Below are positions 1-17,885 of a DNA stretch of 20,662 nt, in pieces. The position numbers and the translations under genes were made by a program. Below the pieces are notes generated by a model. It did not search any database and was not told where the DNA came from. It saw nothing but the letters and a program-made list of their open reading frames with translations. Location: the IMG/VR virus record IMGVR_UViG_3300044675_008055, positions 1-20,662 of that record, one strand, 5' to 3'. Every line of letters begins with the position of its first letter. Positions within the stretch are counted from its first letter, which is position 1. The DNA is from a virus.

Positions 1-410
1 TCAATGTGTTTGCGAATGTTTTCATTTGCATCAGCAATAGAATCATAATCTCTTTCACTAACACTTGTTCCTCTTTCTTTTATAAGAGAATCACGAGTAG
101 TTTTGGTTATATGTTGAAGAGCATCATATAAATCAGGCTCACCATATTGAGTAGTAAGATTTTTATGTAATTCTCCAAAGTGTTGAGAATCATCACCTAA
201 AATTTTAGATATTGATCCATCTAAGTGTTTTTTAAATTCACCGTGAATACCCGAATCATCACCTTTGACATTTGGAAGTTCACTTTTGATAAAATGTAAA
301 AACTGACCTAATACATGATCTCTATGGTCATTTATTCTTGGTTTTTTATCTCCGTAATTAAACGGTACAATATCATTTGCTTCAAGTAAATATTCTTTAA
401 AGGTTTTCAT
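1..410 (-). CDS. Partial gene: T4 internal-protein-like N-terminus
   Basis: The reading frame starts at the ATG at 408-410 and stays open to the left edge, giving at least 136 residues with the C-terminus missing. The protein begins MKTFKEYLLEAND. This closely resembles the capsid-targeting leader of T4 internal head proteins (MKTYQEFIAEA, from memory), where the prohead protease cuts after the Glu. The rest is hydrophilic and His/Asp-rich, with no domain I recognise; a helical stretch around residues 55-110 contains LHKNLTTQYGEPDLYDALQH. An AATAAATA late-promoter-like octamer lies 7 nt before the start, just after a terminator, so the gene probably has its own late transcript. I infer a packaged, processed head protein; its biochemical activity is unknown. 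Confidence 0.8.
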   Translation of the reverse strand, partial: MKTFKEYLLEANDIVPFNYGDKKPRINDHRDHVLGQFLHFIKSELPNVKGDDSGIHGEFKKHLDGSISKILGDDSQHFGELHKNLTTQYGEPDLYDALQHITKTTRDSLIKERGTSVSERDYDSIADANENIRKHI

Positions 411-417
411 ACTACAA

Positions 418-425
418 TATTTATT
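418..425 (-). promoter_or_regulatory. Late-promoter-like octamer AATAAATA
   Basis: Read on the minus strand, AATAAATA ends 7 nt before the ATG at 410. It matches the T4-type late consensus TATAAATA at seven of eight positions and lies directly downstream of the terminator at 435-457, where a new transcript would be expected to start. Confidence 0.5.
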
Positions 426-434
426 AAAAGAAAC

Positions 435-457: not shown

Positions 458-488
458 GACATACTAAAGGTTCAAATTCTAGTACGAT

Positions 489-1121
489 TTATCGGGGTCC
501 TCTAAAATACATTTTATTCTGATCATCACGCATACCACGTGCATCTGTTTGATCACCAATACGTTGTAAAACATCTTCAATGTGTGCAGCAAATGCACCT
601 TTACCCCCTAAAAGTTCATATGATGCTTTAAGACCTTCTGCGTGCGAAGAATCAGCTTGATCTAAACTTCCTTTTTTAATTAATTGACTAAGATGTTGAG
701 AAATTTCAGAATGAGTTTGTGGATCAATAGAACCACCTGCACTACCACCTTCATCATTGTCTAAAAAATCTTGAAGCATATCTGCCGATGATGGACCTTT
801 TGCTTCATTCAACATGGTAGGAAATCCACCATAAACAATATTATTTCTATTATTGTTTATAATAACTCTACCTTCTTTGAGAGCCTTCTTTTTATCAATG
901 GCTTTCTTAATTGCCTTATCCTTGGATCCAAAGTATTCATCCTTAGATGATTCTACTTCACCATCACCATCATAGTCTTTAGTGGATTTCTTTCCATTCT
1001 TACTATTTTTACCATTCTTCTTGGATTTGTTAAACTTACTAATATCAAATCGTTTCTCAATAAGATTGAGTTGTGCTTGAAGTTGTTCGTATAATGCTTT
1101 GTAGTAGTCTAGGTCATTCAT
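489..1121 (-). CDS. Putative virion protein with calcium-loop-like motif and protease-site-flanked peptide
   Basis: This 210-residue protein matches no family I can name. A helical N-terminus (1-25) leads into a Lys/Asn/Ser linker (30-48). At 49-62 there is a calcium-loop-like DYDGDGEVESSKDE, with Asp at loop positions 1, 3 and 5 but Lys at 12, so it is not canonical. A Lys-rich helix follows (66-82), then LKE-GRVI at 81-87 and YGGFPTMLNE-A at 97-107. These two (L)xE sites would release a 23-residue peptide if cut by a T4-type prohead protease, and nearly the same segment occurs in the protein at 1889-2293. The C-terminal half has helical repeats (ISQHLSQLIKKG, HIEDVLQRIGDQ). TATAAATA lies 5 nt before the ATG and no Shine-Dalgarno is seen. 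A structural or head-internal role is inferred. Confidence 0.8.
   Translation of the reverse strand: MNDLDYYKALYEQLQAQLNLIEKRFDISKFNKSKKNGKNSKNGKKSTKDYDGDGEVESSKDEYFGSKDKAIKKAIDKKKALKEGRVIINNNRNNIVYGGFPTMLNEAKGPSSADMLQDFLDNDEGGSAGGSIDPQTHSEISQHLSQLIKKGSLDQADSSHAEGLKASYELLGGKGAFAAHIEDVLQRIGDQTDARGMRDDQNKMYFRGPR
818..875. repeat. Dispersed repeat, copy 1
   Basis: This segment encodes the GRVI...YGGFP stretch and is similar at DNA level to 2212-2260. Both copies share the 17-mer taggaaatccaccataa (818-834 here, 2212-2228 there) and a second block ctctaccttc (866-875 here, 2251-2260 there). The central part differs by small in-frame length changes. Confidence 0.75.
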
Positions 1122-1126
1122 ATTAT

Positions 1127-1134
1127 TATTTATA
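1127..1134 (-). promoter_or_regulatory. T4-type late promoter TATAAATA
   Basis: A perfect T4 late octamer on the minus strand, 5 nt before the ATG at 1121. In T4 the octamer covers about -13 to -6, which would put +1 on this ATG. The octamer contains the TAA stop codon (1130-1132) of the preceding gene. Confidence 0.65.
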
Positions 1135-1849
1135 AACTTAATCGTTTATCCTGTGTTGATTTAATGTATGCATTCATTTTATCCAAGTAACCCTTATTTC
1201 GCAATTCCTTGAATACCATATTCTCAATACTCACTTCTCCAGACTTTTTGAGTCCAGAACTTCTCATATTTCTAAGTTTTTCTTTTAATTTATCAAAAGA
1301 TTCATCTTCTGCATTTGATGAAATTAAATCATCAATTTTTTCAATATATTCGGTAACCTTCTTTTCAATACTTGGATCTTCTAAATTTACTTCTTGATGC
1401 TTAGGCTCTGTTATCCATTGGTCATTAAGAACGCTATAAGCCCCCTGATCAGGTGGTACGGCTTCTTTAACGTCTTGAGCGTATACTTCTACATCATGCC
1501 CTAGAATGGTTATATCATGAGTTAGTGACCAAAGTTGTTTCTTATCTTTAAGGTAGTCATCTATTAAATTTGGGCAGTTATCAATTTTTCTTTTATCAAC
1601 CAAAATGTGAAGATCAATGTCTGAATATGATGTGTAAGCATAACTTGCATTACCACCAACTAGAATATAATCTTCTACTGCACTTTCTGGTAATCCAACC
1701 CACTTTACCCAGGTACGCCCAATATCTAAAAGTTTAGCTTTAATGTCTTTTCTTAATTGCATACCATCCCAAATCTTTGGATTTAGTTCATCATGGTATT
1801 CAAGAGTTGAAGAAGTATTTTCTTCTAAGAATTTTTTAAAAGAAAGCAT
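1130..1849 (-). CDS. Nucleotidyltransferase-fold protein with capsid-targeting-like leader
   Basis: This 239-residue protein carries the pol-beta nucleotidyltransferase signature: GG at 65-66, then SDIDLHILVD with Asp77 and Asp79, and a third acidic residue probably Glu121 in HDVEVYAQD. These would bind the metal ions that transfer an NMP group; the substrate cannot be read from sequence. The C-terminal half is helical and charged, ending FKELRNKGYLDKMNAYIKST. The first residues, MLSFKKFLEEN, resemble a T4 capsid-targeting leader with a possible cut after LEE, which raises the possibility that the enzyme is packaged in the head. It lies between putative virion genes. The start has only a weak AAAGAA upstream and a poor late-promoter match (TATAAAGA). 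Similar proteins occur in large phages, as I recall, without known function. Confidence 0.85.
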   Translation of the reverse strand: MLSFKKFLEENTSSTLEYHDELNPKIWDGMQLRKDIKAKLLDIGRTWVKWVGLPESAVEDYILVGGNASYAYTSYSDIDLHILVDKRKIDNCPNLIDDYLKDKKQLWSLTHDITILGHDVEVYAQDVKEAVPPDQGAYSVLNDQWITEPKHQEVNLEDPSIEKKVTEYIEKIDDLISSNAEDESFDKLKEKLRNMRSSGLKKSGEVSIENMVFKELRNKGYLDKMNAYIKSTQDKRLSL

Positions 1850-1888: not shown

Positions 1889-2293
1889 TCAATAATTAGA
1901 CCGATATTGTTCTATCCACCATGTAATCTGAAACCAAAGATCATACTCATATGCTTTTCTTCTTCTAAGATACTCTTCTCGTGATTCTCCATCTAATTGT
2001 CTTGGACTATTTGCTTCTTGCCATTCAATAAACCATTTGTCAAATTCTGGTGTATTATATGGTGGCACTCTTCCTGGTGGTAGAATTCCAGGAGGTGTTC
2101 CAACTGGAGTTCCTTGAGATGGTCCTGCTTGAGCTGGTACTTCTGCAACATTATTATTAGTAAGATTTTGAGCAGTTATTATTGTTGGTGCAACAACTTC
2201 ATTAATTATTTTAGGAAATCCACCATAATTAATATTATTAGTTCTAATTACTCTACCTTCATTTAAATTATATTTTTTATTATGGTGTTTCAT
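1889..2293 (-). CDS. Pro/Gly-rich putative virion protein with protease-bounded peptide
   Basis: This 134-residue protein matches no named family. It starts MKHHNKKYNLNE-GRVI. Residues 13-32 (GRVIRTNNINYGGFPKIINE) are bounded on both sides by T4-type (L/I)-N-E sites and closely match residues 84-106 of the protein at 489-1121. A Thr/Asn/Ala stretch (33-58) and a Pro/Gly linker (59-80) follow. The C-terminal part (84-134) is rich in Trp, Tyr, Glu and Arg and probably helical (FDKWFIEWQEAN, REEYLRRRKAYEYDLWFQITWW). It lies 3 nt after the stop of the gene at 2297-3337, with GAGATAA before the ATG as a possible weak ribosome site, so the two are probably co-transcribed. A packaged or structural role is inferred. 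Confidence 0.8.
   Translation of the reverse strand: MKHHNKKYNLNEGRVIRTNNINYGGFPKIINEVVAPTIITAQNLTNNNVAEVPAQAGPSQGTPVGTPPGILPPGRVPPYNTPEFDKWFIEWQEANSPRQLDGESREEYLRRRKAYEYDLWFQITWWIEQYRSNY
2212..2260. repeat. Dispersed repeat, copy 2
   Basis: The second copy of the segment at 818-875, encoding the GRVI...YGGFP peptide. The 17-mer taggaaatccaccataa at 2212-2228 is identical in both copies, and ctctaccttc at 2251-2260 is also shared. Confidence 0.75.
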
Positions 2294-2296
2294 TTA

Positions 2297-3337
2297 TTAT
2301 CTCATTCCATGTGCGGCTTTTAATTTCATAACTTCTCGTTGGTATGCATTTCCTTGAGCAGTATTTAAAGTCTGCCATTTTGCATCCTGTGGAATTTCTT
2401 CTTCTTCGGTATCAGGATCATCAAAATGTGTTACAATTAAATTTCTAAGTCTTGCTTCTACTTCTGGTGTATTTGTAAAACCTTGATATGGTTGGGGCTT
2501 TAAAGGATCCATAGGTGGTTGTTGTGGCATACCTTTCATACCCTTTTTACCTTTTTTAGAAGGCATACCAGGAGGTGGCATACCACCTGGAGGTCCAATT
2601 GGTGGCATTCCAGGTCCACCTGGAGGACCAACTAATGCCAATTCTTCAGTTATACCATTATCATTATAATTTTTAATTTTATACACTTGACGAGAATACT
2701 GATCATAATGATATGTCTCTGTAGGAACTCTAGGTGTTGCACGACCTGATTGTTCATCTGATACATAAATGTTGTATTTTTGCAACAATTCTTTTAAATT
2801 TTGATTCAGATGATTGGCAACAGCATTATTCATTGTTTGCCATGTTACAACTTTTGATTCTGGTGCTAAATTAAATTTTTCTTTTATTTTATCACTATAA
2901 GCTCGGCTAACAGAACTGTTATCAGTTTTATCAGCATATTGATTAACAAATTGTTGAACTGAAGCTGTTAAATTTGGAGCAACTTCAAATCCCATACCAA
3001 AACTTGCTGTATTTACAGATGTTCCAGGAGCATTAGTTACAATTACTGCCTCTGCACCGGTTGGATTAGTCGCAGTATCGAAGTATGGAAATATATTACC
3101 AACTGCTTCTTGACCTTTGCCTGGAGCTAATACAGGTGGTGCATTAGCTTCAAAGATATCATCAAATGTATGTTGAACTATTTCTTTTTTATTCTTAATT
3201 TTATTACGTTTAAAAGAATCAAATAACTGAGATTTAATTCCTTTGTTGACTTTTTTAATGCCTAAAGCGGAAGAATTTAGTTTTGCACCAAAAACATCCT
3301 GCACGTTATAAACATTTCCTTCATTCATTTCTTGCAT
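2297..3337 (-). CDS. Putative virion protein with Pro/Gly/Met-rich linker
   Basis: This 346-residue protein matches no family I can name. It begins MQEMNEGNVYN, with a possible protease site MNE-G, and has a second site DIFE-ANAPP at 60-67; both fit T4-type prohead processing only loosely. Residues 85-130 are rich in Ala/Thr/Asn/Gly and likely beta or flexible. Residues 140-235 look folded (IKEKFNLAPESKVVTWQTMN, TYHYDQYSRQVYKIKNYND). Residues 237-275 form a Gly/Pro/Met segment resembling collagen without the strict G-x-y period, followed by a basic KKGKKGMKG patch. The tail has an acidic run and a helix. A perfect TATAAATA lies 5 nt before the ATG, with no Shine-Dalgarno. It is the first gene of the minus-strand operon 1889-3337. 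Confidence 0.8.
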   Translation of the reverse strand: MQEMNEGNVYNVQDVFGAKLNSSALGIKKVNKGIKSQLFDSFKRNKIKNKKEIVQHTFDDIFEANAPPVLAPGKGQEAVGNIFPYFDTATNPTGAEAVIVTNAPGTSVNTASFGMGFEVAPNLTASVQQFVNQYADKTDNSSVSRAYSDKIKEKFNLAPESKVVTWQTMNNAVANHLNQNLKELLQKYNIYVSDEQSGRATPRVPTETYHYDQYSRQVYKIKNYNDNGITEELALVGPPGGPGMPPIGPPGGMPPPGMPSKKGKKGMKGMPQQPPMDPLKPQPYQGFTNTPEVEARLRNLIVTHFDDPDTEEEEIPQDAKWQTLNTAQGNAYQREVMKLKAAHGMR

Positions 3338-3675: not shown

Positions 3676-3936
3676 ATGTACGACAAATACTCTATAGTAA
3701 CAGGCATAACCGCAAATCCAGGTATCAGACTACCTAAACATAAAGGTATTATGATTGGAAATACTGGGGCAACTGGGCACTTTAGAGCAAACTGTATTTC
3801 TAATACTGGTAGTTTAACAGGAATTACATTTTATACTGTTAACCATAACGTTGAAGGTTATTCCATTCTTCCATTACAATTGCATACGCTGGAATCAATT
3901 TCTGCAAGTGGACCTTCAATATCTTTATTGAATTAA
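3676..3936 (+). CDS. Small beta-rich protein, first of a tandem paralogous pair
   Basis: An 86-residue protein rich in Gly, Ser, Thr, Asn and Ile, with the composition of a small beta-sandwich. It shares the frame MYDKY..(S/T).IT..P..RL.KHK..M with the next gene, and both end in a short hydrophobic strand followed by LLN (SISLLN here, SVYLLN there). The pair therefore arose by tandem duplication and then diverged strongly in the middle. I do not recognise the family. Small surface or decoration proteins of virions have this size and composition, but that is only an inference. A CTAAATA late element lies 8 nt before the start, and no Shine-Dalgarno is visible, whereas the second copy has one. 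Confidence 0.8.
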   Translation: MYDKYSIVTGITANPGIRLPKHKGIMIGNTGATGHFRANCISNTGSLTGITFYTVNHNVEGYSILPLQLHTLESISASGPSISLLN

Positions 3937-3946: not shown

Positions 3947-4222
3947 ATGTACGATAAATACGCATATTCAACTTTGATTACTCCATCACCAAATACAAGA
4001 CTAGCTAAACATAAAGCGGTAATGTTAATTAACAATGTTGCTAGTCATGGAAGTAACCCAGCTGATAATTCCTTTTTAGTAATAAATAAATCTGGTAATA
4101 CTGGTTTTTACAGTCCCACATCTCCAAGTAACGCTGTTAAACCATTTACAATTATACCAGTACAAATGTATAGTTATAATATTGCTGTTGCTTCAACAGT
4201 TTCAGTATATTTATTGAACTAA
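3947..4222 (+). CDS. Small beta-rich protein, second of a tandem paralogous pair
   Basis: A 91-residue paralogue of the gene at 3676-3936. Conserved positions include MYDKYA at the start, LITPSPNTRLAKHKAVM at 10-26, the strand FTIIPVQMYS and the end VSVYLLN. The middle (residues 30-60) is Ser/Asn/Gly-rich and unlike the first copy. A good Shine-Dalgarno, AAAGGA, lies at 3936-3941 before the ATG at 3947, so this gene is translated as the second member of a polycistron, unlike the first copy. The function is not recognised; a virion surface role is one possibility. Confidence 0.8.
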   Translation: MYDKYAYSTLITPSPNTRLAKHKAVMLINNVASHGSNPADNSFLVINKSGNTGFYSPTSPSNAVKPFTIIPVQMYSYNIAVASTVSVYLLN

Positions 4223-4223: not shown

Positions 4224-4430
4224 ATGTCTAAAGACATTCGATGTCTGATTACCAACAACCTTCTTAAAAAGGGTGAGTGGTTTTGGCTATCGTGGGAAAT
4301 GGATGCTGCCATCTCAGCACCCGGTCTAGCAGAATTAGAAATGCGCCGTCATGATCCTGACGATGACTTTGCTAGAATGTTGTGGCAAGAATGGGAATGG
4401 ACTCGGGAAATCGGAAACCCAGATCTTTAA
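4224..4430 (+). CDS. Small acidic Trp-rich protein, unknown function
   Basis: A 68-residue protein beginning MSKDIRCLITNNLLKKGEWFW and containing five Trp residues, with an acidic HDPDDDFARMLWQEWEWTRE near the C-terminus. The ATG lies just after the stop of the previous gene (4220-4222), so translational coupling is likely; no clear Shine-Dalgarno is present. Its stop overlaps the stop of the convergent gene at 4427-5083 within TTAA. Codon use is more GC-rich than in the gene before it. I do not recognise the family. The small size, compactness and Trp content would suit a protein-binding inhibitor, but nothing in the sequence proves this. Confidence 0.7.
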   Translation: MSKDIRCLITNNLLKKGEWFWLSWEMDAAISAPGLAELEMRRHDPDDDFARMLWQEWEWTREIGNPDL

Positions 4431-5083
4431 TTTCTTAACATTCTAGAAATCTTTTGTGATACCGATTCCTTAACTGTTTTCCAGTTCTTGCTAGGAAGTT
4501 CGTATTTGCCTTCATCTTCTGGTTCTTCTTCATCACCAATTACATTATCAGATGCATCAAGTCTTACATCTTGAGCATCAGCATCACCGTCTCTATCAAC
4601 ATCAGTGGGTTTAGAGTCGTGTGCCCAAGGAAATGAAGGTAGTTTTCCATATGGAACTTCTTCTGTGCCTGAATCTGGATCTGTTGGATCGTATGAGTCA
4701 TCAGCAACATCCCCTCCATGGTATCCAGTTTCTACACGTTGAACACCACCACCAATAGCAGCTTTTTCATTTTTAATTTGAGCAGCTCTATCTTGGAATC
4801 CACTAAAATCAAAATCACTCAATTCTCCCTCACCAGAACTTGCAGCTTTACCAGCTGATTCAGCAGCAGCAGCTTTAGCTGCACGTCTTTTTTCGCTGTC
4901 TACAAGTGAACGTGCTTTTTTTGCAGCCATTCCTGCTTCACTGCGATTAGGTTTATAGGCTTCATTTAACATTTCACCGTTATATGAACGTTGTTCTGCA
5001 AGAATTTCAAATCCTTTGCGTTGGGCTTGAACACCAGCTTCGTTTAAGGAATGAATCCAACCGTAATAACCTTTATTCTTCAT
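4427..5083 (-). CDS. Ala/Asp-rich protein with three likely prohead-protease sites and a calcium-loop motif
   Basis: A 218-residue protein starting MKNKGYYGWIHSLNE. I chose the ATG at 5083 over one at 5104 because CTAAATA plus the spacer ATAAT precedes it exactly as at the gene starting at 1121. Three (L)xE sites lie in the first 41 residues: SLNE-A (13-15), ILAE-Q (28-30) and MLNE-A (39-41), separated by short peptides. Residues 52-85 form an Ala/Lys-rich helix. Residues 88-155 are Gly/Asp-rich and disordered. Residues 161-172 (DVDRDGDADAQD) match a dockerin/EF-hand calcium loop well, with Asp at positions 1, 3, 5 and 12. The C-terminus is acidic, then a basic helix (KTVKESVSQKISRMLRN). No named family is recognised; a processed head-internal or scaffold-associated protein is inferred. 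Confidence 0.82.
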   Translation of the reverse strand: MKNKGYYGWIHSLNEAGVQAQRKGFEILAEQRSYNGEMLNEAYKPNRSEAGMAAKKARSLVDSEKRRAAKAAAAESAGKAASSGEGELSDFDFSGFQDRAAQIKNEKAAIGGGVQRVETGYHGGDVADDSYDPTDPDSGTEEVPYGKLPSFPWAHDSKPTDVDRDGDADAQDVRLDASDNVIGDEEEPEDEGKYELPSKNWKTVKESVSQKISRMLRN

Positions 5084-5088
5084 ATTAT

Positions 5089-5095
5089 TATTTAG
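5089..5095 (-). promoter_or_regulatory. Late-promoter variant CTAAATA
   Basis: CTAAATA on the minus strand, 5 nt before the ATG at 5083. It directly abuts the -35 element of the plus-strand promoter at 5096, so an early and a late promoter are back to back with no spacer. Confidence 0.5.
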
Positions 5096-5123
5096 TTGAC
5101 ACAAAAGTTCTATATGCTATACT
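5096..5123 (+). promoter_or_regulatory. Strong sigma70-type promoter
   Basis: TTGACA (5096-5101), a 16-nt spacer and an extended -10 TGcTATACT (hexamer 5118-5123). The expected start, 7 nt after the hexamer, falls on the ATG at 5130. It would drive the small gene at 5130-5264 and the tRNA-Tyr. Confidence 0.8.
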
Positions 5124-5269: not shown

Positions 5270-5352
5270 GCAAGAGTACTCAAGCGGTCAACGAGGGCAG
5301 ACTGTAAATCTGCTGATTAATTTCTACGAAGGTTCGAATCCCTCCTCTTGCA
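5270..5352 (+). tRNA. tRNA-Tyr, anticodon GUA
   Basis: Acceptor stem GCAAGAG/CTCTTGC is perfect, followed by discriminator A at 5352. The anticodon stem GCAGA/TCTGC encloses loop CTGTAAA with anticodon GTA at 5304-5306. The long variable arm (about 5314-5329) is typical of bacterial tRNA-Tyr. The T arm GAAGG-TTCGAAT-CCCTC has one mismatch. CCA is not encoded. It decodes UAU/UAC and lies in the plus-strand early block. Confidence 0.93.
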
Positions 5353-5948: not shown

Positions 5949-6237
5949 AACTGCCACAATGATGTCGTTTGATGAACTTCGAAAGAAGTATGATCATATT
6001 GATTGTTTTTTCACATATTATAATGGAGAGAAATCTTCTTTTGATTTTTATGGCACTGATGCAAATGGAACTGAGGTTCGTATTTCCATTGGTGGATGTC
6101 CTGCATGGATCAAGACTATTGAGTTTGGTCCTAAAGATCCTATAAATATTAGTGATTCAATTGAACGTCATGTTCGATTTGTCTCTGTTACAGATAACCG
6201 TGGTAAGCAAGTTTACGAACAATTTTTTGATGTCTAA
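5941..6237 (+). CDS. Small protein of unknown function
   Basis: A 98-residue protein starting MAKTATMMSFDELRKKYDHI. I chose the ATG at 5941, which overlaps the stop of the previous gene (5946-5948), rather than an upstream in-frame start inside that gene. AAGGAAAAGAG lies upstream as a loose ribosome site. Residues 20-75 alternate hydrophobic and polar positions and are probably a beta sheet (FFTYYNGEKSSFDFYGTDAN, TEVRISIGGCPAWIKTIEFG). The end has SIERHVRFVSVTDNRGKQVY. No motif points to an enzyme. It is translated in a tight run with the next two small genes. The family is not recognised. Confidence 0.8.
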   Translation: MAKTATMMSFDELRKKYDHIDCFFTYYNGEKSSFDFYGTDANGTEVRISIGGCPAWIKTIEFGPKDPINISDSIERHVRFVSVTDNRGKQVYEQFFDV

Positions 6238-6246
6238 AGGAAACTA

Positions 6247-6681
6247 ATGGGAAATTCAGATTATAACGATTTTAGAAATTGGCAGAATGGTGACGATAGT
6301 GAAGAGAACAATCCACATGATGGATTCTTCTTCTTTGGTAATTCTAGCCCAGAATTTAAGAAGATGTGGGATCAAATGCGTAATGGTGAAAATCCTGCCG
6401 ATAGCCTTCGTGACTATCTTAATATGGATGACATGTTGGATAAATGGGCTCAAGACAATAAGAAGAAACCATTTAATCCAAACAATCCACCAAAACATTC
6501 ACGTAGACCAATTAAGCATAAGCCTAAGACAACTCCATTTAGTCAAGAAGAATATTTTAAACTTATTGAAATTCGTGGATACCTTGCTATCAAGGAACAA
6601 TTTGCACATGTTAAGGCATTAGATAAGTTGCTTAATCAGATTGTTATTAAGCCTATAAACAATCCAGGAGAGTTCCAATGA
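6247..6681 (+). CDS. Asn/Asp-rich small protein, unknown function
   Basis: A 144-residue protein with a good Shine-Dalgarno (AAAGGA at 6236-6241). The first third is acidic and Asn-rich (SDYNDFRNWQNGDDSEENNP), with a run of four Phe at 27-30. A Pro/Lys/His-rich basic linker (75-94) separates it from a helical C-terminal part (98-140: QEEYFKLIEIRGYLAIKEQF, HVKALDKLLNQIVIK). The charge asymmetry, acidic front and basic middle, is clear. Its end overlaps the next start by 4 nt (ATGA), indicating translational coupling. No family is recognised. It belongs to the plus-strand small-gene block, where host-interaction proteins are expected. Confidence 0.8.
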   Translation: MGNSDYNDFRNWQNGDDSEENNPHDGFFFFGNSSPEFKKMWDQMRNGENPADSLRDYLNMDDMLDKWAQDNKKKPFNPNNPPKHSRRPIKHKPKTTPFSQEEYFKLIEIRGYLAIKEQFAHVKALDKLLNQIVIKPINNPGEFQ

Positions 6682-6890
6682 CATATATTGCAGGTGAAGC
6701 ATACCAAAAGGGATATTCAGCCCGTATGGGTGGTGCAGAGAAGGCATCAAATGTTTATGAGTCTACCAGTGTGTATTGGCAAGAATGGGCTACTGGTTGG
6801 GATGATGCTCACACTAAGATAATTAGTGAAGCCAGAGAAAATACTGGCTGTTCAAAACCTAAGTGTTGTAAGACGTTTATTCAAGAATAA
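6678..6890 (+). CDS. RMF/CrpP-like small protein
   Basis: A 70-residue protein. Residues 7-44 follow the pattern of the ribosome modulation factor/CrpP family: EAYQKGYSARMGG, then a short loop with NVY where NPY is usual, then W..W..GWDDA. Bacterial RMF binds near the anti-Shine-Dalgarno and dimerises 70S ribosomes; CrpP-like proteins share the fold. The assignment rests on the spacing of Gly, Ala, Asn, Tyr and Trp, recalled and not searched. The C-terminal extension has CSKPKCC (58-64), which could bind a metal and is not part of RMF. AGGAGAG lies before the ATG. It is the last gene before the terminator at 6891-6915. A role in modifying host ribosomes is inferred. Confidence 0.65.
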   Translation: MTYIAGEAYQKGYSARMGGAEKASNVYESTSVYWQEWATGWDDAHTKIISEARENTGCSKPKCCKTFIQE

Positions 6891-6915
6891 AAAAATTCCC
6901 CGAAAGGGGATTTTT
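6891..6915. terminator. Bidirectional rho-independent terminator
   Basis: The stem TCCCC/GGGGA (6897-6901 with 6906-6910) has a GAAA tetraloop and is flanked by A-tracts on the left and T-tracts on the right, so it works on both strands. It separates the convergent genes ending at 6890 (plus) and 6914 (minus) and overlaps the stop of the latter. Confidence 0.85.
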
Positions 6916-9378: not shown

Positions 9379-9385
9379 TATTTAG
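9379..9385 (-). promoter_or_regulatory. Late-promoter variant CTAAATA
   Basis: CTAAATA on the minus strand, 12 nt before the ATG at 9366. Its TAA is the stop codon (9382-9384) of the preceding gene. Confidence 0.5.
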
Positions 9386-10278
9386 TTCTGAATTATTTTC
9401 TTATTCATTAACCCATATAAATTGGGATCATATGGTTTTGTAAGCAATGAATTAAGTGTATTGGCAGAGATAGACTTAGTTAAATTCTGTACCTTATTAT
9501 CTGGTAAAACCTCTGTACCCTCTTTCAACATATCAGTTACAGATTTGGTGCTCCAAGTTCTGCAAGCCCAGTAGCGTGCCTTCCAGCGCGGTCCAGGAGT
9601 ATCACACCTGTGTCTTGCACGGAAATTACGACGACGAGCTGGGTTATCCCGCTTGATTTCCATGTTAGGGTCACCAAAATTAACTTTAACTACATTACCC
9701 TTGTCATTCTTTACAAAAACCTTATACTTTTTAACATCACCAGCCATAATTTTATTTAATTTGACTTTTTTATTTCCTTCTTCATATATTTCAATTTTTT
9801 CATTGTATTCATTATATGAAGTTTCTTCAATATTATCTACAAAACCCATTACTGTATTAGCTTCAAAAATTTCATTACTTTCACAATTATTATTTAAAAA
9901 TGTTACATGATAAAGTCCATTAGACTCTTCAATATAATCTACTTCTAACATTTGACCCGATTCATTGATGATTACATCACATGGAAGCAATTCATGTGCT
10001 TCAATCGTATCATAATTCATTTTAAATACATTAGAAGCACCTTCTACTGAAAACACATTATAAGATTCTTTAATTTCAGAAACACCAGTTTTTACAAATA
10101 CTGGCTTCTTACCTTTACTCTCAGTAATCTCTTTTTTACTTTTCATAGTCTTCTTATCAGCATTACGCTTTTTAATAGAACTAGAATTCTTATTGGCAGC
10201 TTTCTTAGCTAACCATTTACCAAGTCCTGTTTCAGCAAAAATCTTTTCAAGTAAAATGTTAACGTTTTTAGAATTCAT
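9382..10278 (-). CDS. Putative virion protein with a conserved basic aromatic domain
   Basis: A 298-residue protein. I chose the ATG at 10278 (MNSKNVNILLEKIFAETGLG) because AGGA lies 7 nt upstream; an ATG two codons earlier overlaps the previous stop as ATGA. IFAE-T (13-16) is a possible processing site, followed by a Lys/Ser-rich basic region (24-60). Residues 70-170 are acidic and beta-like. Residues 184-250 form a distinct domain: KKYKVFVKNDKGNVVKVNFG, then DNPARRRNFRARHRCDTPGP and RWKARYWACRTWS. It has many Arg and Trp plus His223, Cys225 and Cys239, so nucleic-acid or metal binding is plausible. The DNA encoding it is much more GC-rich (about 57% over 100 bases by hand count) than the surrounding gene. 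I recall similar domains in large phages, but no function. Confidence 0.82.
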   Translation of the reverse strand: MNSKNVNILLEKIFAETGLGKWLAKKAANKNSSSIKKRNADKKTMKSKKEITESKGKKPVFVKTGVSEIKESYNVFSVEGASNVFKMNYDTIEAHELLPCDVIINESGQMLEVDYIEESNGLYHVTFLNNNCESNEIFEANTVMGFVDNIEETSYNEYNEKIEIYEEGNKKVKLNKIMAGDVKKYKVFVKNDKGNVVKVNFGDPNMEIKRDNPARRRNFRARHRCDTPGPRWKARYWACRTWSTKSVTDMLKEGTEVLPDNKVQNLTKSISANTLNSLLTKPYDPNLYGLMNKKIIQN

Positions 10279-10280
10279 GA

Positions 10281-12653
10281 TCATTTCCTGTTTTGGGTTT
10301 CACCTTTATGATGACCATTATCGGCTCGGTTTTCAGAACGATCTCTAACACGTAAATTCTTTACACTGTTAGAACCACCATTACGAATAGCATTTTTATG
10401 ATCAATATCCTTTTTAGATCCCTTTTTTACAACACCCTTTTTGATCATAAGTTCACGTGCTGCAGTTCTTGATGCACGTTCTTTTTTCTGCTTTGGTTTG
10501 CCGTGATAATTCTTATATTCTTTTTTATAATTTCTAATATACTTTTCTTCTAAATTATCAGCAATAATATCTTCAAACAAAGGAATAAGATATTCTGTAT
10601 TTTCGATTGTATATGAGTAAATTTTATTTAAAATTGGAATCAGGCATCCCGCACGTAGATCATCTTCTTCTAATAGAAGAGGACCATAATGTTCAATCAT
10701 ACTTCGTTCAGTATCAGAAATGATATTTACTTTATTTAATTTAGATAATAAGAAATTATTTGTCAAAGATTCAACAAGCATTTCATTAATAACAAAGTAA
10801 TTTTCACCTAACAATTTATCAGTAACTTTTTCAGTTTTATTTACTGGAATCTTAATTGTCTTTTTTCCAATAGTAACATAATTGTATTCTATAGAATTCA
10901 ACTCTTCTGGTTTAAATCCAGGTAATAAACTAGCATTAATATCAAAAGAAAGATTGTCTATTGAATTTTTAACAATTATTCCCAGTGGATCAATTGTTTT
11001 TCTATCAATAAAAAGTTTCTTCAGATTTGATTTGTCTTCGGTTGCTTCAATAACTGTTCGAAATTTTTGTAAATTTTGAATACTGGATTTTTTATATGTT
11101 GATATATTAGAAGTATCTAATGCCTGTTCATTCTGTTTGATACTAATAGAGGCAGTTTTAGCAATCTCCTGCATATAATCATCAGACATTGGAAATACAC
11201 CATTTGTTGTGATTATGTGATTGGGTGCATTTTTAGGATCAACTAAACCATCTCCGCGTAAAGATGATTGTAATATATTCTTGGTCAAAGAAATTAAAAA
11301 TGGATTCTTTTTTCCACCTTTAAATAATTCACTACCAGACTTTTTAATCGAAGCTTCATATGCTGAAACAGAAACTGCTGGATTTATATTTCCATTTTGA
11401 TCTATGGCAAAACCCAAGCTCTGTCCTGATGGAGAAAAAATCTCATAGGATTGAAATTTAGTTACCAGTTCTGGATTACTTAAAATCATTTGAAGTGATT
11501 GATCGGGCAACAATTGTGGTGAAAACTTTTCACTCGATGCTTCTACATCTGTTAAAAGTTTCTTTACAGATGGATCAGATTTTGCCATTTCTGGATCCAT
11601 TATTGTTTTGGTCAAAGCATTACCAATAATACCTCTAACAATTTTTCCACTTTGATTCAATGAATTTGTACTCATAGTGAATTCACCACCAGCAGAAATC
11701 TTAAATTTATATTCACCGCATTGTAATTCTGGAACACCATCAGAATACATACTAGAGTTACCAGATTCAATACTTGATAATAGATTCTGAATACATTCAT
11801 CACCAATTTGTGATAGAATTTTATTGGCTTGTAAAAAAGCAGTTTTTGTAAAATCTAAAGAGTTAGCTGATCCAGAAAACAATGCATTAAGTTCTTGTTC
11901 ACTTGCTCCAGCTTTTAATTTGGCAGCAAAAATTAAAGCATTTATTACTTGTTGATTATATGGTAAATTTGAGGTAGTATTAATACCAAATTGATTGGTA
12001 AGTGCTTCAAATGTAATATTATCAAACTCTTCAGACTTTTTAGGAGCTCTAATACTCTTAAAGTATTCTTGTTGTAAATCTAATGGCATAGATGCCATTT
12101 GATTGGTATCCATACCCTGCATTGCTTTTAGAATTTCTTCTTTAGATAGACGTTTAGCCTTCTGTGGTTGAGCTTCAGCGGTTTCTTGCTCACCTTCTTT
12201 TGCTTTTGGTTTATCACCAGTTTTTTCAGCTGTTTTTGGTGCTTTTTCTTCTTTGTCTTCTTGTTTCTTTAATTCACCAAATAGTAATTTGGACGCACGA
12301 GTCTGTTCAAATTTTGGATCATTTGTAAAACTCTTTGCTTCATCTTCCGTTAATGTATCTCCTTTATTTAATTTTACATGGTTCTCTTTATTAAAAGAGT
12401 CTTTAAAAATTAATTGGATTCTACCAGAAGCAGTTTTTACAGCAATAACTTCTTTTACCAATTCCCCTTTGGATTTTCTATCTCTTGGGATTTGTTTTGA
12501 TCTTTCAACTCTTTTACGGGCTGCATCCTTTGATTTATTGGATGTTGCGTTTCCCGTAGCCTTTTCTTTAGCGATAGCTTCCCCAGTAGTCCTAAAGGAG
12601 TCGGAGGCAGTGCGGGAGGCTTCGGTTAACTTTAAAAGATCTTTGAAGTTCAT
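10281..12653 (-). CDS. 790-residue putative head-internal protein with C-terminal HNH-like domain
   Basis: The longest protein in the window. It starts MNFKDLLKLTEASRTA, a T4 capsid-targeting-like leader with a probable cut after LTE (9-11). Residues 17-60 are basic; 110-175 are Lys/Glu/Ala/Pro-rich and disordered. Residues 190-700 look folded, with mixed helices and strands and no motif I recognise. The end is basic (KPKQKKERASRTAARELMIK) and then HNH-like: DIDH (749-752), NGGSNSVKNLR (758-768) and SENR (773-776), giving His752, Asn766 and Asn775, the order seen in HNH/N nucleases. Zinc-binding cysteines are absent. If active, it would nick or cut DNA near packaged or ejected genomes; that is inference. 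GATAAATA lies 7 nt before the ATG. Its TGA overlaps the next gene. Confidence 0.85.
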   Translation of the reverse strand: MNFKDLLKLTEASRTASDSFRTTGEAIAKEKATGNATSNKSKDAARKRVERSKQIPRDRKSKGELVKEVIAVKTASGRIQLIFKDSFNKENHVKLNKGDTLTEDEAKSFTNDPKFEQTRASKLLFGELKKQEDKEEKAPKTAEKTGDKPKAKEGEQETAEAQPQKAKRLSKEEILKAMQGMDTNQMASMPLDLQQEYFKSIRAPKKSEEFDNITFEALTNQFGINTTSNLPYNQQVINALIFAAKLKAGASEQELNALFSGSANSLDFTKTAFLQANKILSQIGDECIQNLLSSIESGNSSMYSDGVPELQCGEYKFKISAGGEFTMSTNSLNQSGKIVRGIIGNALTKTIMDPEMAKSDPSVKKLLTDVEASSEKFSPQLLPDQSLQMILSNPELVTKFQSYEIFSPSGQSLGFAIDQNGNINPAVSVSAYEASIKKSGSELFKGGKKNPFLISLTKNILQSSLRGDGLVDPKNAPNHIITTNGVFPMSDDYMQEIAKTASISIKQNEQALDTSNISTYKKSSIQNLQKFRTVIEATEDKSNLKKLFIDRKTIDPLGIIVKNSIDNLSFDINASLLPGFKPEELNSIEYNYVTIGKKTIKIPVNKTEKVTDKLLGENYFVINEMLVESLTNNFLLSKLNKVNIISDTERSMIEHYGPLLLEEDDLRAGCLIPILNKIYSYTIENTEYLIPLFEDIIADNLEEKYIRNYKKEYKNYHGKPKQKKERASRTAARELMIKKGVVKKGSKKDIDHKNAIRNGGSNSVKNLRVRDRSENRADNGHHKGETQNRK

Positions 12654-13953: not shown

Positions 13954-16014
13954 TTATCTAAGTCTAATAGTACGGGCTGTTTGATATAAATTTTGAATCA
14001 TGGCATTAATATCGCCACCCTTCATTCGTTTCCATTCATCATCATCATAACTTCCACGACCACCACCGGAACCCATACTACCTGTTCCTACAGGAGGTAC
14101 TACTGGGGGTATAATTGGTGGGGGAGGTGGTGGAGGTGGTGTCTGGGTAGAAGGAACTGTTACTACATTTGCTGGAGGAAGTAAAGTACCACCAGTTATC
14201 TTATTTAATGAAAAATCTGCTTTTTGTGTTTGAGTGTCTTTTGCAGGAACTTTTTCTTTTGCAGAAACTTTAGTTCCTTGTAAAGCTTTCCACCAATCAT
14301 TCGAATATTTATTAACTGTTTGTTTATTAGTATCTGAGGTTGCAATTAAAGGTTTTGCAGAAACATTTGAATTTGTAGATACATTTACGGGAACAGATGT
14401 TGACGATTTACTTCCAGGTGTTACTATTCTATTAGAAGAACTCGAGGTATTATCTACTGCTGATACTGGTTTTGATTCTGGAACAGTTGGTGGTCTCATT
14501 TCAACATTTCCAAGATTTTCTCTTGGAGCTGTTTCTACAGAACTTATTGATGAACTTGGTTTTGAAATGTCTACATTAGTAGCTGGAACTCCATTGCGTG
14601 CTGCAAGAGCAGCCATTGCAGTAACAGCAGCACGTTGTTTTGAACTACTAGTTGGTTTTGAGGATGATGTCGAGGATACACTATATGGTACAGGTTCAGC
14701 AGGTTGATATACTTCTGGTGTAGTTTGTGTTGATGTATCCCACACTGATCTTTGATTTGGAATTGTAGGATCTATAGGTTCAAGATTATATCCAGTATCG
14801 AGTGGAACTCGTTGCGGTCTTCCTCTAACAATTTTAACCCGTGGATCTGGAATTAGTTCTTTAATACCAGTTCTTATATTTCCAGGAATGTCTGACAATG
14901 AAGTATCTGCAATAGCTCTACCAGCTGCACTAACTGCTCCAGCTACGTTTTTACCAGCTTGAACAGCTGAGTCTGCAGTTCCTTTTGCAACTACTCCTAT
15001 ATCTCCAGCAACTTCTTTTCCTTTAGCATAAGCTATAGGAGCAGCTTTTATTGCAGCTGGAATTCCTTTTTCAGCTATTTTACCACCAATTGCAAATGGA
15101 CCAACACCACCAGCAACTTGACCAGCAAATCTTGGAAGTTGACCAGATTGATCTGCTTGATATGCCCCATATCCTAATGCACCTAAACCACCTAAATTAA
15201 CCGCAGATTGAGCAAAAGCAGCTCCTCCTTCAGCAGCATTTCTTGCTCTACCACCAATAGCTGCTGGAATAACTTTTGAAACAGGTTTAAGAAAATTAGG
15301 AATGAGTTTTGCAACTTTGGGGCCAACAGCTCTTCCTGCAGCTCCAGCTGCCATACCTGCACCTTTAAATAGTGCACCACCAGCTGCAGCCATTGCAAGT
15401 CCTTCTGGTGTCGTTAAACTATCTTGAGCACCACGTAAGAAACCATAAAGTGCTGCAGAATTATCATCTATTCCACCCCATTTATCCATTGTAACTGGAG
15501 CTTTAGAATATTCATTTCCAGTTTTTTCATCTTTTCCAGATATATTTAATTCTAAAGGTTTTGTTATATCTCCCGCTAGACTTTCATATTCATCTCGTGT
15601 CAGTATTTGAGCAAGTTCTGGTTTCTTTGCTAAAGCTTTTTTTAAGACTTCAGTTTCATCAATTGTAGCAGAGTCAGGTTGACCACCGGCAATAAGTTTT
15701 TGACGTTCATCAAAAGCTTCTTTACGAGCATCAACTAATGCTTTAGCAAATACTGATCTTGCTTTATCATATGCAACTGGATCTTTTTTAGCAAATGGAA
15801 CTTCAGCTTGTGCCATACCTTTGACACCCGGAAACTTTTCATAAGCAACATCAATAGCTAAGTCTCTTATATCTTCAGGTCTGGGACCCTTTGCTTTACG
15901 TAACTTATTATAAGAAAAACTATTGTCACCACCATCATCAAGAGCTTCATTCAAAATATTTTGTTGATATCTTTGTTCTAAAAGATATTTTACAATTGAG
16001 TGTTGTTTACTCAT
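13954..16014 (-). CDS. Gly/Ala-rich 686-residue putative head-internal or ejection protein
   Basis: It starts MSKQHSIVKYLLEQRYQQNI followed by LNE-A, a probable prohead-protease site at 21-23. Residues 30-200 are helical and charged. Residues 205-370 are dominated by Gly and Ala with small hydrophobics (GLAMAAAGGALFKGAGMAAG, AVNLGGLGALGYGAYQADQS), a composition able to insert into or cross membranes. Residues 400-640 are Ser/Thr/Pro/Val-rich and disordered, ending in a run of eight prolines (around 625). The last 45 residues are acidic then basic (YDDDEWKRMKGGDINAMIQN). No enzymatic motif is seen. Podovirus ejection proteins combine membrane-active and disordered parts, so a packaged, injected protein is a reasonable inference. 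GAGG lies 9 nt before the ATG. Confidence 0.82.
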   Translation of the reverse strand: MSKQHSIVKYLLEQRYQQNILNEALDDGGDNSFSYNKLRKAKGPRPEDIRDLAIDVAYEKFPGVKGMAQAEVPFAKKDPVAYDKARSVFAKALVDARKEAFDERQKLIAGGQPDSATIDETEVLKKALAKKPELAQILTRDEYESLAGDITKPLELNISGKDEKTGNEYSKAPVTMDKWGGIDDNSAALYGFLRGAQDSLTTPEGLAMAAAGGALFKGAGMAAGAAGRAVGPKVAKLIPNFLKPVSKVIPAAIGGRARNAAEGGAAFAQSAVNLGGLGALGYGAYQADQSGQLPRFAGQVAGGVGPFAIGGKIAEKGIPAAIKAAPIAYAKGKEVAGDIGVVAKGTADSAVQAGKNVAGAVSAAGRAIADTSLSDIPGNIRTGIKELIPDPRVKIVRGRPQRVPLDTGYNLEPIDPTIPNQRSVWDTSTQTTPEVYQPAEPVPYSVSSTSSSKPTSSSKQRAAVTAMAALAARNGVPATNVDISKPSSSISSVETAPRENLGNVEMRPPTVPESKPVSAVDNTSSSSNRIVTPGSKSSTSVPVNVSTNSNVSAKPLIATSDTNKQTVNKYSNDWWKALQGTKVSAKEKVPAKDTQTQKADFSLNKITGGTLLPPANVVTVPSTQTPPPPPPPPIIPPVVPPVGTGSMGSGGGRGSYDDDEWKRMKGGDINAMIQNLYQTARTIRLR

Positions 16015-16016
16015 TA

Positions 16017-17885
16017 TTATTGTCCTCTAAGACGTTTAAGTTGATCTTCAATATCTTTAGGGCTTCCAGGAGCAACTGCAGGTCTAGAAGTAGTTGATGT
16101 ACCTGAGTTCATAATATCTGACAATAATGATGTTCCATATTCAGCTGGCTGTACTGGACCAGCTACATCTGCATCACCAGCTTTTCCGGGTACTGCTCTT
16201 TGTTGCCGTTTTTCTTGTTCTCTTTTTCTAGCCTGTGTAGCTTGAGCATCTAAATTTTTTTGATTTTGTTCTCTTGCTCTTACATCAGCTCTACCAGCAG
16301 CAAGGTTAGCATTATCACCACCAGTTGGAGTTGGTAAGAATGGTTCTGGGGCTGCTCTTTGCTCAGTACCACCTAACATAAATGGTACTTTTGGTTTTGG
16401 TGGACCCATGATACCAGGTTCAAATAGAGATGGTATTCTAGTACTATTTTTTTGTAGAGATGCTTTGAGTGCAGTTTCTTTGTCTGCAGCAGCTTGTAAT
16501 CTTCCTTGATTCTCTAAAGAACCTTGTTGTACTTTTTCTTTATTAATTTGAGCCATTACCTGTGGCATCACAGAAGCTTTATCTTTAGCAATCTCTCGTG
16601 CTCGAATTTCTGGATTATTTTGGAAATCACTTAGTTCTTGGGCAGACCGATCCATTTGACGTGTGAGCCTACCACCTTCAGCTACTCGTGCATCATTTGC
16701 AGATCTTTGCATGTTTATCATGCTATCGGTTGACCCAGCAAGATCTCTAGCTTCTGCTGAACTATATCTTCCACCCATAGCTCCAGCTTGTTTGATTACT
16801 AATGAACTGTCTTCTCTATTAGTAGCATCATAATCTCTACCAGTATTTGACTTGAACTCACCGTAAGTCATGTTAGTACCTTGAATCTTGACATTCTGCA
16901 TTTTTTCTTTACGATCAGAAGCTTGTTGAGCAGCATCTGCACGATTTTGTTGCTCTCTTTGTGTTACATCTCTTTGAGTAGCGTCTCTGGATGAAGCAAA
17001 TGATGATTCAGTATCAGAATCAAAATAGGCTTTACTTCGAGTACGGGCAGCTGCTTCTTTTGCAGCTTCTTCTGGAGTTTTCTTTGCAGCAGCAAGAGCA
17101 GCAATGTCATCTTCCTGTTGGAAACTACTAATATTACTAGAAAGCTCCGAAGAAAGAGCTGGTTTACCCTGCATACCTGCAACTTTACTTCTAACAGTTG
17201 TTTCTAACTCAGCATTAGCTTTTGATAAATCTCCACCTCTCATCATTATTTTGGCTAATGCTAATTCACCAGCATCTTTAGCACTTAATGTAGAAGGATC
17301 TTGAGCAGATGTTCTGGAAATAACATCTGCTATACGAGTTGCTTGCATTCTACCACGCTCAGAAGGATCAGTTGGACCCTGTTGTTTATAAGAATCAAGC
17401 TCTTTTACCTTATCTTCACGTTTTGTTTTTAATTCAGTTTGTTTTTTTAGATTTTCTTGATATTTTTCTTCATTTCTTGGATCACGATCTCTCCAAGCTG
17501 GACGCTCATCTTCTGGTCTACGTCTTGTAGAACCACTTGATGACGCACCGCCACCCAATGAGCCAAATGATTGTGCTGGTGCTTCTGTTAAGTTAAATAA
17601 ATTAGATGTAATGTTAGGAGACGATCCAACATTTCTTGGAGTTGCTTTTTGAATAAAACTTTCATTCAAAGCAATGAGTGGTAATACACTATTTCTTATA
17701 TCATCTGAGATACGTGGTTGTACCAAGTCTTTCTCAACATAAAAAGGAGAATTTAATGACATAACTTTTGTAATGTCTTCCTTTAAGGTTGATGCACGTT
17801 TAACAGAATTGATGTCCGGATTCTTTGTTTTGGTTAAAAAATCCTTGACTTCCCAGTAAAATAGTCTATCTTGTTTATTATCCAT
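16017..17885 (-). CDS. Charged coiled-coil putative virion protein with LNE/LTE sites
   Basis: A 622-residue protein beginning MDNKQDRLFYWEVKDFLTKT. Two clear processing-type sites occur in the first 101 residues: IALNE-S (73-75) and NLTE-A (99-101). After that come a Gly/Ser hinge (106-120) and a long stretch of Arg/Lys/Glu/Asp/Gln/Ala-rich helix (121-480), including EEKYQENLKKQTELKTKRED and several Gln/Arg repeats. A Pro-rich region with hydrophobic spots follows (480-530, LFEPGIMGPPKPKVPFML), then a basic helix, and the end is KDIEDQLKRLRGQ. This composition suits a scaffold or packaged structural protein. No catalytic motif is recognised. It is the first gene of the minus-strand block; CTAAATA lies 10 nt before the ATG. 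The ATG shares a CCATGG palindrome with an ATG on the other strand. Confidence 0.82.
   Translation of the reverse strand: MDNKQDRLFYWEVKDFLTKTKNPDINSVKRASTLKEDITKVMSLNSPFYVEKDLVQPRISDDIRNSVLPLIALNESFIQKATPRNVGSSPNITSNLFNLTEAPAQSFGSLGGGASSSGSTRRRPEDERPAWRDRDPRNEEKYQENLKKQTELKTKREDKVKELDSYKQQGPTDPSERGRMQATRIADVISRTSAQDPSTLSAKDAGELALAKIMMRGGDLSKANAELETTVRSKVAGMQGKPALSSELSSNISSFQQEDDIAALAAAKKTPEEAAKEAAARTRSKAYFDSDTESSFASSRDATQRDVTQREQQNRADAAQQASDRKEKMQNVKIQGTNMTYGEFKSNTGRDYDATNREDSSLVIKQAGAMGGRYSSAEARDLAGSTDSMINMQRSANDARVAEGGRLTRQMDRSAQELSDFQNNPEIRAREIAKDKASVMPQVMAQINKEKVQQGSLENQGRLQAAADKETALKASLQKNSTRIPSLFEPGIMGPPKPKVPFMLGGTEQRAAPEPFLPTPTGGDNANLAAGRADVRAREQNQKNLDAQATQARKREQEKRQQRAVPGKAGDADVAGPVQPAEYGTSLLSDIMNSGTSTTSRPAVAPGSPKDIEDQLKRLRGQ

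Follow-up and report, generated by a model that had tools for sequence, protein, structure and literature searches.

Two putative capsid-targeting leader families on the gene arrays of a clade of uncultured T4-like phages

Genes and features of the window

The DNA considered here, IMG/VR record IMGVR_UViG_3300044675_008055, is a linear virus fragment of 20,662 bases and is referred to throughout as the window. Its subject of interest is a series of minus-strand genes whose proteins begin with short leaders or modules ending in (L/I)xE. In T4, residues 4 and 7 of the capsid-targeting sequence (CTS) serve targeting and residues 8 and 10 processing, with cleavage after L/I-x-E (PMC9026906); the protease is the prohead protease gp21. 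An earlier note, made from the letters of the window, had listed 13 such sites in ten genes and proposed that this phage packages an unusually large set of proteins that may be ejected with the DNA. All 13 sites were found in the sequence at the genes named, and the observation of (L/I)-x-E leader sites is confirmed. The genes are as follows, with the sites of that list marked as listed.

3 to 410, minus strand, cut by the window end: g1, T4-type leader MKTFKEYLLE-A at 381-410; listed site LLE-A (E10)
489 to 1121, minus strand: g2, leader B (MNDLDYYKALYEQLQAQLNLIE, 1056-1121), EF-hand-like DYDGDGEVE stretch (by eye), sites KALKE-G (E83) and TMLNE-A (E106)
1130 to 1849, minus strand: g3, nucleotidyltransferase-like, leader MLSFKKFLEE at 1820-1849; listed site LEE-N
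1889 to 2293, minus strand: g4, module NEGRVI...YGGFPKIINE (~2195-2272), also found in g2, between sites E12 and E32; listed site NLNE-G (E12)
2297 to 3337, minus strand: g5, begins MQEMNEGNVYNV; site IFE-A (E63)
4427 to 5104, minus strand: g6, N-terminal module KNKGYYGWIHSLNEA...GFEILAE-Q with site E37 (codon 4994-4996); listed sites SLNE-A and MLNE-A (E22, E48)
6914 to 8404, minus strand: g7, conserved N-terminal domain of ~110 residues ahead of E114, stretch resembling the mature N-arm of gp23, the major capsid protein (7958-8065), variable C-terminus; listed sites LINE-D and ILNE-E (E114, E234)
8821 to 9366, minus strand: g9, N-terminal helix MKFKQLLTKINVLQE-N; listed site VLQE-N (E15, 9322-9324)
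9382 to 10284, minus strand: g10; listed site IFAE-T (E18)
10281 to 12653, minus strand: g11, 790 residues, leader MNFKDLLKLTE-A (12621-12653), HNH-like C-terminal stretch (by eye); listed site KLTE-A (E11)
13954 to 16014, minus strand: g14, leader ...KYLLEQRYQQNILNE-A at 15946-16014; listed site ILNE-A (E23)
16017 to 17885, minus strand: g15, N-terminal module MDNKQDRLFYWEVKDF (17835-17885); later listed sites ALNE-S (E75) and NLTE-A (E101)

The shared N-terminal position that had been claimed for these sites holds for eight of the ten listed genes, in which a listed site lies within 23 residues of the start; it does not hold for g7 and g15, whose sites fall at residues 75-234. Genes g2, with two conserved sites and the second leader type, and g5 were added to the ten, giving a candidate set of 12 genes (4365 residues), and the 16 other genes (2248 residues) served as controls.

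Motif statistics in the window and in related contigs

The narrow motif (L/I)(N/T)E(A/G/S) occurs 10 times in the candidate genes against a mean of 0.99 in 2000 shuffles, none of which reached 10, and is absent from the controls. For (L/I)(N/T)EA, the comparison with shuffled sequences that had been proposed beforehand gave 6 against a mean of 0.31 in the candidates. An (L/I)xE lies in the first 30 residues of 9/12 candidates (shuffle mean 2.6) and 3/16 controls (mean 3.3). As had been cautioned, plain (L/I)xE is common by chance, at 11.5 and 12.0 per 1000 residues in candidates and controls, both somewhat above the shuffles. The form (L/I)xxE was tried as a discriminator and rejected, since candidates and controls are alike (8.2 and 7.1 per 1000 residues).

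Because both the motif and the genes had been picked after reading the sequence, the test was rerun on contigs outside the earlier note. Across three related contigs (G001, G005 and G009; 322 genes of at least 70 residues), the narrow motif was found 17 times in residues 4-50 against a mean of 2.8 (200 shuffles, maximum 8), and 15 times in the remainder against 13.2. Contigs G015, G016 and G018, which had been selected for carrying leader B, gave 9 in residues 4-50 against 3.7 (shuffle maximum 11). With the six contigs pooled, the counts were 26 against 6.9 in residues 4-50 and 27 against 31.2 elsewhere. The N-terminal enrichment was not repeated in 11 other T4-like genomes and contigs, where the pooled counts were 24 against a mean of 18.3 (maximum 29) in residues 4-50 and 109 against 85.2 in the rest.

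Two leader families on otherwise unrelated proteins

Two leader families, which we call A and B, are well supported by the sequences. Modularity was assessed in five clade sequences by a similarity search of N-terminal 60-residue segments that made no use of the motif. Leader A follows the pattern M-K-x-F-K-x-aromatic-L-x-E and was found on 20 proteins; 22 of 26 similar pairs have no similarity in the remainder of the protein, and the cargo of 71 leader-A proteins falls into 41 families. In the window, the T4-type leaders that had been proposed are present on g1 and g3, and g2, g6, g14 and g15 have other starts, which do not fit the T4 type of ~10-20 residues with aromatics about positions 4 and 7. 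The CTS pattern is found 7 times in G001 and 8 times in G005 against shuffle means of 0.9 and 0.8 (0/200 shuffles as high). The window alone, with 1 against 0.17 (reached in 32/200 shuffles), is not significant, and the count is 3 against a null of 2.8 in Cr30, 0 in HTVC008M and 3 against 1.7 in S-SM1. Leader-A genes number 7 in G001, 3 in G004, 7 in G005, 2 in G009, 1 in the window, 4 in G015, 3 in G016, 1 in G018 and 3 in T4. Arrays of five genes lie at 6193-8081 of G001, where four pass the CTS pattern, and at 47771-51728 of G005, where all five do.

Leader B, a 22-28-residue amphipathic stretch of the form M(D/N)YLTNYYKNL(C/S)EQLQ...LxE, is unlike the T4 type. It emerged as a similarity component of 17 proteins, a few of them loosely linked, in which 59 of 63 pairs lack similarity in the remainder. 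A DNA pattern for YYKNLCEQLQ retrieved 34 IMG/VR stretches with 59 leader-B genes, several near-identical and up to three in a row; a looser pattern retrieved 67 stretches, including the first 34. When 62 leader-B proteins, no two of them identical, are compared, the most frequent residue makes up 0.77-1.00 of the sequences at 14 of positions 1-16 and 0.94 at position 22, and its share never exceeds 0.23 from position 31 onwards; frequencies at residues 7-16 are fixed by the selecting pattern, and residues 1-6 and 17-30 lie outside it. An (L/I)xE falls within residues 21-40 of 61/62 of these proteins (shuffle mean 12.5, maximum 21), and within residues 19-40 of 23/23 further leader-B proteins (mean 5.1, maximum 12), with the Glu mostly at residue 23 or 27-28. 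Behind leader B, 86 cargo parts form 35 families. The DNA pattern had no match in bacterial and archaeal genomes, a tblastn search of a 29-residue consensus against 50,697 phage records gave one weak match (E-value 8), and a pattern search for leader B in eight named T4-like phages found none. Other common starts, namely KNNKGYYSWIHSLNEA..., NEGRxI...GGFPRILNE, MDNKQDRQFYWEVKxF and FxDHLxFSxN, are rarer and less certain.

Counted by pattern on our own gene calls, leader A and B genes together reach 7.4 per 100 kb in G001, 8.8 in G004, 10.6 in G005, 7.6 in G009, 9.7 in the window, 4.8 in G015, 5.1 in G016 and 4.2 in G018. The eight named T4-likes have 0-2.3 (T4 1.8), and G003, G006 and G008 have 1.3, 3.9 and 1.5.

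Depletion of the protease motif in cargo proteins

Cargo held in a prohead with active gp21 would be expected to lack the gp21 motif in its body. Behind leader B (87 proteins, 13,558 residues), 36 (L/I)xE were counted where 88 were expected (100 shuffles, lowest 68); the cargo of leader A (71 proteins, 14,236 residues) has 54 against 110.9 (lowest shuffle 93). Near-miss motifs are not avoided in B and A cargo, with observed/expected ratios of 1.06 and 1.10 for (L/I)xxE, 1.25 and 1.34 for (L/I)xD, and 1.21 and 1.25 for Ex(L/I); (V/M)xE is slightly low at 0.78 and 0.89. The 676 other clade genes carry (L/I)xE at 1.14 of expectation. Mature gp23, in ten sequences, has 0.66 of expectation, and three T4 leader-A proteins have no (L/I)xE, but each is expected to have fewer than one. 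We take motif avoidance in cargo as evidence for exposure to gp21. Missing avoidance is weak evidence against packaging, since the motif may be tolerated in a protein that is folded.

Conservation and avoidance in individual genes

Site conservation was scored against orthologs less than 92% identical. The g1 leader is present in 6/6 orthologs shown and E10 is kept in 5/5. In g2, E83 is kept in 17/17 and E106 in 15/17 orthologs; some 100-118 N-terminal residues match distant relatives, and the rest of the protein does not. The leader proposed for g3 was borne out, (F/Y/H)(L/I/M)xE being kept in 17/17 orthologs in which it could be placed, by the YH that follows it, out of 55; a plain automatic alignment gave E in 12/35 and the motif in 7/40. 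Gene g3 belongs to phrog_36119 (function unknown there), two relatives are annotated as nucleotidyltransferases, and a PDB sequence search with the nucleotidyltransferase gave two weak matches (best E-value 0.037). Behind the leader, 50 related g3 sequences have 101 LxE against 135.6 expected, which suggests avoidance. As a separate observation, a module like TGKKVLGKHPSKKKAIAQLQAIEISK precedes the leader in g3 orthologs of G001, G009, L006, L007, L012, L014 and L056, and also starts the g9 homolog of G006.

In g4, E12 and E32 are each kept in 6/6 orthologs. Window positions 801-887 (g2) and 2195-2272 (g4), noticed as a DNA repeat, encode a common module LxEGRVI..NN..YGGFPxxxNE, which is flanked by two predicted cut sites; cleavage at both would free a peptide of 20-23 residues. 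In g5, E63 is kept in 5/7 orthologs and the motif in 5/8. The conserved site of g6 is ILAE-Q, absent from the earlier list and kept in 14/14 orthologs at a flank identity of 0.46; the listed SLNE-A and MLNE-A are kept in 6/14 and 4/11. After residue 50, 14 g6 sequences have 6 LxE against 25.0 expected, a clear avoidance. The LINE-D site of g7 is kept in 11/11 orthologs and its ILNE-E motif in 8/11.

Site E15 of g9 is kept in 8/8 orthologs. A structure model places a helix at residues 3-15 with low confidence (predicted local distance difference test, pLDDT, 61 overall and below 50 at the helix), and the Melnitz-3 homolog begins MKNFKNHIAE-E. The g11 site is kept in 3/4 orthologs; phrog_4590 (unknown function) matches residues 704-782, and the structure model is poor (pLDDT 47.7). 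The g14 site is kept in 2/2 orthologs, and two genes with comparable starts lie in tandem in G001; after residue 25, three g14 sequences have 3 LxE against 8.5 expected, suggestive of avoidance. The N-terminal module of g15 is found on five clade proteins, with 2/10 pairs lacking similarity in the remainder, and five sequences clearly avoid LxE after residue 103 (4 against 19.8 expected). The listed g15 sites are less well kept: E of ALNE-S in 3/4 orthologs and its motif in 1/4, and NLTE-A in 2/4.

Head genes and late promoters

Peptidase S77 (gp21) was recognised in 4/14 contigs, Gp23 in 3/14 and gp21 in 8/8 named T4-likes. In G001, portal-like, gp21, gp22-like and gp23 genes follow in order, the portal and gp22 being named by position; the gp22-like start MISE-A and the gp23 start LYE-D are sites like those of the leaders.

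In cyanophages, the T4 late promoter takes the form NATAAATA (PMC2984593). This motif lies within 90 bases upstream of 62/145 leader genes, 132/892 other genes and 289/11,700 random windows, and gp55-like proteins were found in G001, G015, G016 and G018. In the window, it stands at -13 to -15 before g2, g5 and g11:

1127 to 1134, minus strand: late-promoter motif TATAAATA, starting at -13 relative to the g2 start codon
3343 to 3350, minus strand: late-promoter motif TATAAATA, starting at -13 relative to the g5 start codon
12661 to 12668, minus strand: late-promoter motif GATAAATA, -15 from the g11 start

The motif was also seen to keep a fixed spacing of -13 to the start codon. Counted over contigs G001, G004, G005 and G009, the window and loci L175-L208, 86 cases have this spacing, 21 have -15 and 17 have -14, and the next commonest spacing has 6. 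In T4, the late 8-mer starts at -13 relative to the site of transcription initiation (PMC2988020); by analogy, late transcripts in this clade are predicted to be leaderless. At -13 to -15, the motif accounts for 8/16 cases in HTVC008M, 10/25 in G015, 11/20 in G016 and 8/16 in G018; none was found at this spacing in T4, S-SM1, DSL-LC03, Cr30, G003 or G008, one each in DSL-LC02 and S-CRM01, two in G006 and three in Melnitz-3.

Comparison with known systems

Leader A resembles the leaders of T4 IPI-IPIII in its length of ~10 residues, its aromatics at 4 and 7, L/I at 8 and E10, the diversity of the mature parts and the L/I-x-E cut (PMC9026906, PMC5694885). The clade differs in having more leader genes per 100 kb, cargo of up to 721 residues and one nucleotidyltransferase-like cargo, and its packaging is putative. 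The virion proteome of S-SM1 includes a putative cytidylyltransferase, T4-GC190 (PMC3037559); a leader goes unmentioned in the passages on it, and the protein begins MKKFSAFLNEAE. It offers a reported virion example of enzyme-like cargo behind a leader, MKKFSAFLNE-A. T4-GC190 differs from g3 in its enzyme name and does not avoid LxE, and S-SM1 has a single strict-leader gene; T4-GC15, also in the S-SM1 virion, has no leader. The giant phages phiKZ, 201phi2-1 and SPN3US likewise have many head proteins whose N-terminal propeptides are removed by a gp21-like protease cleaving after x-x-E (PMC5694885, PMC9026906). Those propeptides often exceed 100 residues and end in S/A/G/T-x-E, whereas the clade leaders have ~10-28 residues and end in L/I-x-E. 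Among the matches listed by a literature search (titles and beginnings of abstracts), none concerned capsid-targeting leaders in uncultured T4-likes, and leader B is not searchable there by sequence.

Behind the LxE-D site, some g7 orthologs contain a stretch similar to the gp23 N-arm, with scores of 93 in G005, 88 in G001, 86 in L011, 80 in L009, 72 in L022 and L021, 64 in G009 and L023, and 58 in L014, against shuffle means of ~24; shuffles were made for g7 orthologs and S-SM1. In the window g7 and its closest relatives, the score is 38-45 (window 42, shuffle maximum 47), which is not significant, and the mimic is therefore treated as a side result. A similar arrangement was noticed in gene 61.1 of T4 (18966-19130, locus L227): gp61.1, of 54 residues, begins like a CTS (MKTFKEFIKE-D), continues with a stretch resembling its own gp23 cleavage-site region, and is the best non-gp23 match in T4 to that region (score 77). 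DSL-LC02 and S-SM1 encode such proteins close to the primase gene. Unlike gp61.1, g7 has 496 residues, with ~110 of them forming a domain ahead of the site and a long tail following it. Counterparts of the gp61.1 type were found in DSL-LC02, S-SM1, G001, G003 and G015, and no mimic in 7/13 sequences with a recognised gp23 (S-CRM01, Cr30, DSL-LC03, Melnitz-3, HTVC008M, G008 and G018). Papers containing the term gp61.1 give the protein as hypothetical.

Relatives and other genes of the window

A megablast search of the window against the 50,697 phage records gave no match. Gene g3 was used as bait to draw 56 loci from IMG/VR, and tblastn of g3 matched 45 phage records, best among them the Synechococcus phages DSL-LC02, S-N03, DSL-LC03 and S-CRM01, with Caulobacter phage Cr30, Prevotella phages and Maribacter phages also present. 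The G001 nucleotidyltransferase is 60% identical to g3. WhiB, sought as a clue to the host, was found in 0/14 contigs. PHROGs and Pfam name RuvC-like, exonuclease, HNH, trypsin-like and ribonucleotide reductase genes in the window, and most genes of the finding fall in no named family there. The window also has two tRNA genes:

5270 to 5352, plus strand: tRNA-Tyr
20128 to 20202, minus strand: tRNA-Asn

The trypsin-like protease (19271-20068) has a probable signal sequence (by eye), and its relatives among the compared loci were confined to G006, L027 and L028. Two adjacent plus-strand genes (3676-3936 and 3947-4222) both begin MYDKY; G001, G005 and G009 have one such gene each. Between its g2 and g5 homologs, G001 has an open reading frame of 3079 residues (15104-24343).

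Discussion

From these sequence patterns, we consider it quite likely that the clade consists of T4-like phages with an enlarged capsid-targeting cargo system that uses at least two docking leaders. Leader A is, in our judgement, very probably a prohead-core docking helix that is cut off by gp21 while its cargo stays in the head; for leader B, we judge the same role to be probable. The leader would fold as a helix and bind the scaffold core during prohead assembly, gp21 would cut after the leader Glu so that the leader departs, and the cargo would remain with the DNA and be ejected into the host. Some cargo, perhaps the nucleotidyltransferase, might then act early in the host as T4 Alt and IPI do; its role as an injected modifier like Alt is a guess by analogy. 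We lean slightly towards a fuller picture, in which a second, coiled-coil capsid-address peptide, not known from T4, would sit on tandem, interchangeable cargo arrays beside the T4 address, one virion would hold ten or more delivered proteins purged of the cutting motif, and late promoters near the start codon would yield leaderless mRNAs.

Several results weigh against this reading. Avoidance is not general across families: it is absent in g1 (9 LxE against 7.6 expected behind the leader in six sequences, 1.19), g2 after residue 110, g4, g9 (1.22 of expectation) and g11 (0.94), weak in g7 (0.84) and reversed in g10. The leader-A cargo of nine other T4-likes has (L/I)xE at 0.97 of expectation, and S-SM1 T4-GC190 at 1.49. 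Several listed sites, namely IFAE-T, SLNE-A, MLNE-A, ALNE-S and NLTE-A, are weakly kept or not conserved. IFAE-T of g10 is kept in 0/5 orthologs and is probably a chance match; g10 and its orthologs (six sequences) have 52 LxE against 16.0 expected, rich instead of purged, so this protein would either never be exposed to gp21 or be a core-like protein cut many times. The g3 leader is missing in five distant orthologs (G003, L029, L031, L032 and L040), and in some others a leader-like stretch lies ~45 residues inside the protein. The late motif is missing before 83/145 leader genes and occurs before other genes. Selection limits what the leader profiles can say, as the frequencies of F4, aromatic 7, L8 and E10 in leader A are fixed by the selecting pattern, like those of the central residues of leader B. 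Related loci include close relatives, and rows within a family are related, so that the counts are not independent. The window contains no head gene, no virion proteome was found for this clade, no experimental precedent was found for leader B, and S-SM1 has one strict-leader gene against 41 virion proteins (PMC3037559).

In an unlikely alternative, the leader-B proteins would belong to the prohead core (scaffold), as T4 gp67 and gp68 do, and would be fragmented by gp21 and expelled, shaping the head instead of being delivered to the host. The further conserved sites E83 and E106 of g2, its lack of avoidance after residue 110 (0.96) and the resemblance of leader B, by eye, to a coiled-coil scaffold-binding helix are in keeping with such a role. 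However, the pooled leader-B cargo avoids (L/I)xE, the opposite of what a fragmented protein needs, and its division into 35 families also speaks against a scaffold. We think it rather improbable that the leaders are shuffled N-terminal modules serving oligomerisation, translation efficiency or host-factor binding, with incidental (L/I)xE ends. The hydrophobic residues of leader B are spaced by 3-4, and its tie to heads is putative; yet (L/I)xE is present in 84/85 leader-B proteins and is avoided behind both leaders, not in other genes. That the listed motifs reflect mainly chance and ordinary homology, as the equal frequency of plain (L/I)xE in candidates and controls and the poor conservation of IFAE-T, ALNE-S and NLTE-A might suggest, is very improbable in view of the shuffle tests, the previously unseen contigs, the leaders on unrelated proteins and the site avoidance.

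The proposal of a packaged protein set is partly supported. At 4.2-10.6 leader genes per 100 kb, the eight clade sequences exceed the named T4-likes (0-2.3), and an unusually large set fits the clade, although three of the eight (G015, G016 and G018) had been chosen for leader B; packaging and ejection themselves stay at the level of what the leaders and sites would imply. The leader would provide a sequence handle for phage proteins that are packaged and probably injected, so that, in uncultured phages, arrays of hypothetical genes would become a definite catalogue of candidate early effectors and counter-defence proteins. Cargo that avoids the protease motif would reveal its exposure to the prohead protease by computation alone, and other phages could be screened for this sign. 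If the second leader type is real, T4-type cores would have more than one docking surface, and the heads of these phages would be loaded through a second, independent address.

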